Origin: Marinomonas arctica | GTDB taxonomy: Bacteria > Pseudomonadota > Gammaproteobacteria > Pseudomonadales > Marinomonadaceae | DNA length: 64,000 bases | NCBI RefSeq assembly: GCF_003259225.1 | Contig: NZ_QHJF01000032.1 | Location: 1-64,000 of the forward strand | Direction: 5' to 3' | In this document: piece after piece, positions 49,294-50,381 of the stretch | How the letters are laid out: each line of letters starts with the position of its first letter | Position numbering within the stretch: position 1 is the stretch's first letter | Made by a program: the position numbers and the translations under genes | The notes under the pieces: model-generated | Seen by the model: only the letters and a program-made list of their open reading frames with translations | Databases searched by the model: none | What the model was told of the DNA's origin: nothing

Positions 49294-49321
49294 TTGACAA
49301 ATAAGTCGAATAGATTAGTAT
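49294..49321 (+). promoter_or_regulatory. Promoter of the NYN leader RNA
   Basis: A consensus TTGACA (49294-49299) is followed after 16 bases by TAGTAT (49316-49321, four of six matches). Transcription would begin near 49328. Confidence 0.6.
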
Positions 49322-49327
49322 TTAAGG

Positions 49328-49404
49328 TAACAACTAATCCTATGCAGGTGGTGAGGCTTGACCCCATTTCATAGGAAGAAAAAGCCGACTCATGTCGGTT
49401 TTTT
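49328..49404 (+). ncRNA. Candidate small RNA or attenuator leader before the NYN gene
   Basis: About 77 bases between the promoter and an intrinsic terminator. TCCTATG (49338-49344) pairs perfectly with CATAGGA (49370-49376), enclosing a G/C-rich loop with GGTGGTGAGGC and GACCCC. Then AAAGCCGAC (49381-49389) pairs with GTCGGTTTT (49394-49402, one G-T wobble) around TCAT, with six T. GGCTT (49355-49359) could pair instead with AAGCC (49382-49386) and open the terminator. The next gene starts 24 bases after the T run. This is either a free small RNA or a regulated transcription-attenuation leader. It does not match any riboswitch class I recognise. Confidence 0.5.
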
Positions 49405-49427
49405 CGTATCTGAAGGATTGGAAAAAG

Positions 49428-50381
49428 TTGAAAACGAGAGTTTATATTGATGGTTATAATCTTTACTATGGCTGTTTAAAAAATACACCGTATAAGTGGT
49501 TAGATCTTAAAGCATTATTTGTAAATCACGTTTTGCCCAGTGTGTATCATGAAAACTCTCATCCTCAGTTACTTCCTCAAGGTGTTAAATTTTTTACTGC
49601 TAAAATTGTGGAAAAGGCTGCACTTGGTACCAATTCAACTAAAGACCAACAAACTTACCACAATGCCCTCAAAAAACATCTCGGGGATGGCCTTTGCTTA
49701 TATGAAGGCTACTATGCTATCAATAAAGTGCATGCTTTTCAGGTTCAAGGAAACAATCTGCCGCGTGACTGCGATAGAGTAGAAATCTGGAAATTAGAAG
49801 AGAAGCAAAGTGATGTAAATCTTGCAACGGAAGCCCTTTTTGATTCCGTCGTTGAGCAAGAGTTAGAGCAAATTGTTTATGTTAGCAATGATACTGACAT
49901 TGCTGCCTCAATGATAAAGGTCCGCGAGTATAACTCTGTACGGCTTAGTAAAGGGTGGAATTCGATCAGAATTGGTCTTGTTATTCCTACCAAGTCGTCT
50001 GAGTCTAATGATGATGAGGCTAGACGTGCAAATAAAACCCTCTCCGATCTTGCTGATTGGACTGTTAAGTGCATCACACGAGATTGGTTAGAAAAGTCTC
50101 AACTTCCTCACAAAGTTCCAAATGGTCGTAGGCCAGCCTTAATACCAATTTCTTGGCATCCTGAATCAGAAATATTTAAACTTATCATGTTAGAGCTAGG
50201 TAAGGTTCATAAACTCAGTGAGTCTTGGCAATGGTTGGAACAAACAAAGCCCTATGTAGATGGTCTTATGGATCTTACATCGACTACACCTTTAGAAGCA
50301 TTGTGTACTTCAGATGGGGCTGTTGGTGTTTATGAGCATGCAAAGGCATACATTAGCTGGAAACTTTCTTTACCAGAATAA
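49428..50381 (+). CDS. NYN-domain (PIN-like) putative ribonuclease
   Basis: The N-terminal half is a NYN/LabA-type PIN-like domain: TRVYIDGYNLYYG with the first catalytic Asp, EEKQSDVNLATEALFD with the second acidic pair, and IVYVSNDTDIA with the third. Such domains are metal-dependent nucleases acting on RNA. The C-terminal 80 residues hold a WLEQ...TPLEALCTSDGAVGVYEH pattern that recalls the MbcA/ParS (DUF2384) fold; this is a weak resemblance. The start is taken as TTG 49428 (MKTRVYIDGYNLYYG, AAGGA ten bases before, 317 aa). An ATG at 49392 is in frame but lies inside the terminator hairpin loop. It stands alone between ssb and smr. The cellular role is unknown. Confidence 0.75.
   Translation: MKTRVYIDGYNLYYGCLKNTPYKWLDLKALFVNHVLPSVYHENSHPQLLPQGVKFFTAKIVEKAALGTNSTKDQQTYHNALKKHLGDGLCLYEGYYAINKVHAFQVQGNNLPRDCDRVEIWKLEEKQSDVNLATEALFDSVVEQELEQIVYVSNDTDIAASMIKVREYNSVRLSKGWNSIRIGLVIPTKSSESNDDEARRANKTLSDLADWTVKCITRDWLEKSQLPHKVPNGRRPALIPISWHPESEIFKLIMLELGKVHKLSESWQWLEQTKPYVDGLMDLTSTTPLEALCTSDGAVGVYEHAKAYISWKLSLPE

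Follow-up and report, generated by a model that had tools for sequence, protein, structure and literature searches.

The 64,000-nucleotide stretch of Marinomonas arctica DNA analyzed here (the window) carries a small structured RNA directly upstream of a gene for a NYN-domain nuclease. From sequence comparison, we propose that this locus is a type III-like toxin-antitoxin module consisting of an RNA antitoxin, a leaky terminator and a NYN nuclease toxin, a reading to which we give a probability of roughly two in three. The RNA and its terminator recur before NYN genes in several bacterial phyla, the RNA stem pairs covary, and RNAs persist at loci without the NYN gene.

Promoter, RNA and terminator upstream of the NYN gene

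The features of the locus are as follows.

49294..49321, + strand: sigma-70 type promoter of the RNA, with -35 TTGACA (49294-49299) and -10 TAGTAT (49316-49321)
49330..49405, + strand: conserved structured RNA of subtype A, putative RNA antitoxin, from covariance-model matches
49338..49376, + strand: hairpin 1, from the predicted fold and covariation among relatives
49378..49405, + strand: intrinsic terminator between the RNA and the NYN gene, with a 12-bp stem and a T run at 49399-49404
49413..49417, + strand: Shine-Dalgarno AAGGA in the conserved post-terminator stretch, also present in L002, L004, L006 and L009
49428..50381, + strand: NYN-domain ribonuclease of 317 aa, long form with a C-terminal extension, putative toxin (HEC-09, Pfam NYN, AlphaFold)

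The promoter hexamers match the consensus at 10 of 12 positions and are separated by a 16-bp spacer (49294-49321). The RNA is composed, in order, of a conserved 5' single strand (ACAACTAA), hairpin 1 and the terminator hairpin. Hairpin 1 has a 7-bp outer stem, TCCTATG/CATAGGA (49338-49344 / 49370-49376), and an inner stem that closes a GGCTTGACC loop, and the terminator (49378-49405) reads GAAAAAGCCGAC-TCAT-GTCGGTTTTTTC. A 79-nt stretch with the RNA has a predicted folding energy of -32.5 kcal/mol, compared to a mean of -15.3 for 200 shuffled sequences (z = -5.8), and none of the 200 shuffles folded as well. The NYN frame begins with a TTG codon at 49428, 24 nt past the T run, and the position of this start is common to the homologues L002 (TTG) and L004 (GTG). 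The first-pass annotation of this DNA had placed the promoter, the 7-bp stem, the terminator and the start codon correctly. We also considered a longer NYN frame from ATG 49392, which was rejected because it begins within the terminator and is not conserved. Expression of the NYN gene apparently needs read-through of the terminator.

The same arrangement was seen at homologous loci. A terminator-like hairpin lies upstream of the NYN gene in 99 of 100 such loci, and in 57 of 74 loci the best match to a -10 hexamer begins 12-14 nt 5' of the RNA. The mean match at those sites is 4.5/6, compared to 3.0/6 at random places (74 loci). With a -10 box 12-14 nt before its first base, the RNA probably starts at its own transcription start.

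Conservation and covariation of the RNA

We compared the layout upstream of NYN homologues from relatives, plasmids, the 80 named-genome loci and viral contigs. The RNA and NYN gene occur together in Gamma-, Beta- and Alphaproteobacteria, on a Leptospira plasmid, on small and large enterobacterial plasmids and on viral contigs. Their common layout is a promoter, ACnACUnA, hairpin 1, a short joint, the terminator, a CAUUUCUGG-like stretch with a ribosome site and the start codon, and the stretch between terminator and start is strongly conserved. Dozens of unrelated genomes have this RNA in front of this gene, which is far beyond chance.

There are at least three RNA subtypes. Subtype A, the window type, has a GGCUUGACC loop and accompanies long NYN proteins. 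Subtype B (CUUCCACGCGUGG), from Marinomonas, Pseudoalteromonas and Photobacterium, also accompanies the long form; at the subtype-B loci of Marinomonas the distance downstream to the NYN gene is greater by more than 100 nt, and the RNA is unchanged. In subtype C, which accompanies short NYN proteins, a covarying stem closes an AUUnAGUU loop. Shorter, diverged forms were found in Leptospira, Desulfobacteraceae, Nitrospirae and others. Subtype A has 50 double-change cells, compared to 17.2 +/- 2.9 in shuffled alignments and at most 12 in slid controls, and subtype C has 49, compared to 15.2 +/- 2.6 and at most 10. One hairpin 1 pair in subtype A is UA in 10 sequences, GC in five, AU in four and CG in one, and is broken in none. 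Such covariation indicates that the RNA structure is under selection. The first-pass annotation had named conservation of the stem pairs in NYN-bearing relatives as its own test, and the pairs are conserved with covariation in subtypes A and C.

We built covariance models from subtype A (R1) and from subtype C (R2, which contains no subtype-A sequence), and the window RNA scored 70.2 bits with R1 and 46.8 bits with R2. At the loose threshold of E 0.01, whole-genome scans returned mostly terminators with scores of 27-39 bits, so matches from genome scans were accepted only above ~45 bits or when the full layout was confirmed by eye. No conserved small reading frame was found in 20 subtype-A RNAs, in which ATG frames are either missing or differ in position, length and sequence, and this leaves a leader-peptide attenuator unsupported. 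No candidate pseudoknot helix was seen in subtype A. In subtype C the ACU of the tail could pair with the AGU of the loop; 82% of cells are paired, with no covariation. We saw no variable, spacer-like segment in the RNA, and the unpaired ACnACU tail and the AUUnAGUU loop are conserved.

At gathering score, no Rfam 15 family matched the RNA, abiF (RF03085) included, in agreement with the first-pass view that it matches no recognized riboswitch class. The only Rfam matches in the window and homologous loci were RNAI of Col plasmids and tRNAs, and relaxed thresholds added only sub-threshold noise, chiefly terminator matches. sRNA-Xcc1 is a mobile sRNA family; identity with it was considered and dropped because there is no Rfam match. 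A literature search, exclusive of preprints, found no paper on a NYN nuclease with an RNA antitoxin, and a report that escaped us is possible. As far as these searches reach, the RNA-NYN pairing is described neither by Rfam nor by any paper found.

The NYN protein

The window protein matches the profile of the PADLOC candidate defence family HEC-09 with an E-value of 2.4e-20, and relatives match it more strongly (5e-49 for L252, 3e-34 for L251 and 8e-43 for Leptospira). Its match to Pfam NYN (E 0.002) falls below Pfam's own cut-off, which relatives exceed, and no NCBIfam model matches it. The AlphaFold model is confident (mean pLDDT 95.1), and among structures in the PDB it most resembles the MARF1 NYN domain (E 7.7e-4, TM 0.59 by target length). 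We conclude that this is a divergent member of the NYN nucleases, which have the same fold class as PIN nucleases and, like them, an acidic active site. The acidic residues D8, E125, D129, D155 and D157 are retained in all 48 aligned homologues, save one gap at D8, and an active nuclease is therefore expected.

The C-terminal extension of the long form (window 50100-50378) corresponds to an Xre/MbcA/ParS toxin-binding domain in L016, L017 and L022 (E 4e-9 to 2e-8), so these relatives combine a nuclease and a domain of antitoxin type in one protein. A profile of the extension matches PDB 6gw6 with an E-value of 0.0023, and the window copy aligns with the Xre/MbcA/ParS region yet stays below the Pfam threshold. 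Several NYN homologues (L017, L018 and plasmid matches H2, H11, H14 and H67) are labeled 6-hydroxy-3-succinoylpyridine 3-monooxygenase (nicB/HspA) or Xre antitoxin, which is likely a misannotation spread via plasmid records. Some genomes with an intact NYN gene contain fragments of a second one, at L012 and L165 (G023:C1:155338-155517) and at L164 (G431:C17).

Linkage of RNA and NYN gene

Eighty genome loci were chosen solely by NYN protein similarity. The NYN gene is intact in 72 of them, and all 72 have the RNA. The covariance model (E < 0.01) detected it directly upstream in 66 cases, and in the remaining six (L067, L078, L081, L092, L095 and L101) it was recognized by its two-hairpin layout. 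Among the 80 loci there is no intact NYN gene without the RNA. The RNA is kept beside a broken NYN gene in six loci (L032, L034, L052, L061, L075 and L080). At L037 an element is inserted within the RNA's terminator and the NYN gene is frameshifted, and at L056 the RNA is missing together with the start codon of NYN. Some of the broken frames may be sequencing errors.

A scan of 369 genomes of the class with R2 (E <= 1e-8) gave matches only in the window's own genome and in G225, G294 and G338; in each of the last three the RNA stands directly before a NYN gene. Within the genus, 11 of 48 genomes carry the NYN gene and all 11 carry the RNA. The RNA occurs without the gene in nine genomes of the genus (G006, G011, G014, G015, G019, G423, G427, G428 and G429), which, with a second copy in the window's own genome, makes 10 solitary RNAs. 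That copy (G000:C52:96643-96718, minus strand; loci L139/L142) is of subtype C, scores 72 bits and has one mismatch in the P1 stem. In G019 only the first NYN codons are left after the RNA. This one-way dependence, as read from the genomes, agrees with an RNA that neutralizes a toxic nuclease.

The six solitary subtype-C RNAs retain a -10-like region. When these were aligned with three NYN-linked RNAs, 99% of pairs were kept, and the terminator showed double changes from C-G to U-A and from G-C to A-U. The overall identity of the solitary RNAs is no higher than that of the flanking DNA, so long-term selection on them is suggested rather than proven, and some RNA-only loci may be recent remnants. 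The solitary RNAs L143, L145 and L153 (G006, G019 and G427) resemble recombination joints; the upstream flank in G427 is shared with G019 (95-99%) and the downstream flank with G006 (about 91%). At L146 (G015:C103:185-265), the position of the NYN gene directly after a solitary subtype-B RNA is taken by a HigB/HigA-like type II toxin-antitoxin pair. On the Mycobacteroides plasmid pGD19 (L250), a HEC-09 NYN gene adjoins ParA and has no recognizable RNA or terminator upstream, which is possibly an exception or a different kind of control.

Tandem-repeat RNAs and mobility

The window and most relatives have a single RNA unit. Two units, 53 nt apart, were found at L014 on Klebsiella/E. coli Col plasmids, and two units, 68 nt apart, at L188 on a viral contig. 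The 4.6-kb E. coli plasmid pRHB09-C23_3 (L251) carries four 33-nt hairpin units (L251:210-360), followed by a terminator and a HEC-09 NYN gene, and would make a convenient laboratory version of the system. Tandem repeats, a terminator and a nuclease gene form the arrangement by which type III antitoxins are recognized (PMC5086642, PMC8860590).

In the window genome, the RNA-NYN module occupies about 1.6 kb of inserted DNA between ssb and smr, genes that adjoin each other at the empty site in G018, G006, G008 and G011. NYN homologues are present in 405-446 plasmid records, about half of them from Klebsiella, and the carriers range from 4 kb Col types to IS26-flanked IncR/IncFIA plasmids and include Klebsiella resistance plasmids. 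As judged from these genomic contexts, the module is horizontally mobile. In Photobacterium a NYN homologue adjoins CRISPR-Cas. Homologues are rare in sequenced phages (two records).

Discussion

We propose the following mechanism. Sequence and comparison indicate that one promoter gives rise to a ~76-nt RNA ending at the intrinsic terminator, and the layout suggests that occasional read-through would produce the mRNA of a NYN-fold endoribonuclease. The terminator implies an excess of RNA over nuclease, and this RNA would bind the nuclease directly and keep it inactive. The RNA would be short-lived and lost when transcription stops or the RNA is degraded, as may happen during phage takeover or plasmid loss, and the freed nuclease, by analogy with ToxIN and AbiF, would cut cellular RNA. 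Such a module could have a phage-related or plasmid-maintenance role. An RNA that restrains the nuclease is consistent with the layout and the excess of RNA as well as with the one-way dependence and the repeat forms. The antitoxin reading is favored because RNAs persist without the gene, because no intact gene lacks the RNA in the 80 loci and because tandem-repeat versions exist. Covariation, the intact acidic residues and NYN fold, mobility and the RCd22-AbiF precedent of Clostridioides difficile also count in its favor. Against it stand the single RNA unit of most copies, the lack of covariation for a pseudoknot, the RNA-only loci that may be recent remnants and the Mycobacteroides plasmid relative (L250).

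The RNA could instead act only in cis, as a leader whose terminator sets or senses how strongly NYN is expressed, and have no role in trans; a variant is that the nuclease possibly regulates itself by cutting its own leader. The order of promoter, RNA, terminator, ribosome-binding site and gene, with its need for read-through, suits this explanation, as does the strong conservation between terminator and start. The first-pass annotation had proposed a transcription-attenuation switch with a GGCTT/AAGCC antiterminator. The window does contain these complementary segments, but their pairing shows no covariation and three of the five pairs vary only by breaking, which leaves a switch based on this helix unsupported. 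In addition, RNA-only loci retain promoter, hairpin and terminator, repeated units ahead of a terminator are hard to explain in a simple attenuator, and the RNA is unchanged at the Marinomonas subtype-B loci with a more distant NYN gene. We consider a purely cis-acting role unlikely, and comparison indicates that the module is not a plain attenuator. The same annotation had also offered the alternatives that the RNA controls the nuclease or is its substrate or partner, and the evidence favors a partner.

A partner RNA need not be an inhibitor. As a guide or activating cofactor of a ribonucleoprotein effector, it would account for the tight linkage, for the way RNA subtype tracks NYN form (A and B with long, C with short) and for the repeat arrays on some plasmids, and a required cofactor would explain equally well why no intact NYN gene lacks the RNA. 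However, the RNA shows no variable spacer-like part and conserves its tail and loop, a cofactor would have no use at RNA-only loci, and a terminator that keeps RNA above protein answers an antitoxin's need. This makes a cofactor quite unlikely. It is likewise distinctly improbable that the NYN protein forms an RNA-directed ribonucleoprotein and that the tandem 33-nt arrays on E. coli plasmids represent a primitive form of repeat array, so that NYN would parallel the path proposed from AbiF to Cas13. An independent base-pairing sRNA that acts in trans and lies upstream of NYN by coincidence would fit the ~76-nt length, the promoter and terminator typical of many sRNAs, and the RNA-only loci. 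Yet the RNA accompanies a single gene family in different phyla and at many integration sites, and its class-wide matches beyond the genus all adjoin NYN, so that such coincidence is highly improbable. A chance hairpin and terminator without function, for which nothing speaks except that terminators are common, is refuted by the covariation and cross-phylum conservation, and we regard its probability as negligible.

Many genomes carry this candidate RNA-controlled nuclease module, as do common plasmids of Klebsiella and E. coli. The RNA lacks annotation, and records list the protein under "NYN domain-containing", under the name of a nicotine-pathway enzyme or simply as a candidate defence gene. 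Should the RNA prove to be an antitoxin, a further nuclease fold would come under type III control, after ToxN and AbiF, and natural variants of one to four units would make the step from hairpin to repeat array testable. Defence screens that cloned HEC-09 without the upstream RNA could have misjudged it.

Comparison with known systems

The window protein belongs to the HEC-09 model of PADLOC, but that entry is a protein model alone, without an RNA partner. Type II systems with VapC/PIN toxins differ in having a protein antitoxin, VapB, whereas no small protein gene lies upstream of NYN here.

By analogy, the closest precedent is AbiF-RCd22 of Clostridioides difficile, in which one promoter drives a ~100-nt structured RNA that ends at a Rho-independent terminator, with read-through into the gene of a toxic protein, and in which RCd22 neutralizes AbiF in cis and in trans through direct binding (PMC12373285). 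The RNA-NYN module shares the single promoter, structured RNA, terminator and apparent read-through to the protein gene. It differs in its protein, which is NYN rather than a member of the Abi_2/AbiD/F family, and in its RNA, since RCd22 has two abiF motifs and the window RNA does not match RF03085.

The ToxIN, CptIN and TenpIN (AbiQ) systems are type III systems that are plasmid-borne and tied to phage defence (PMC5086642, PMC8860590). They resemble the RNA-NYN module in having an RNA gene, an intrinsic terminator and an endoribonuclease gene in one operon, in plasmid carriage and, for L251, L014 and L188, in a tandem-repeat RNA. The module differs in its nuclease, which has a NYN rather than a ToxN fold, and in its RNA, which mostly has one unit and no Rfam match. 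A pseudoknot is general in ToxIN and CptIN, whereas no covariation supports one in the RNA-NYN module. We saw no homology between the window protein and ToxN in Pfam, PADLOC or structure comparison, and the module is therefore not filed under the three named families. It does share the layout of type III systems in the broad, functional sense, namely an upstream non-coding RNA gene, an intrinsic terminator and a nuclease gene under one promoter. By analogy, the module appears to work like the named type III families while standing outside them by homology, and it probably represents a type III-like toxin-antitoxin family that is both new and widespread and has a NYN toxin.
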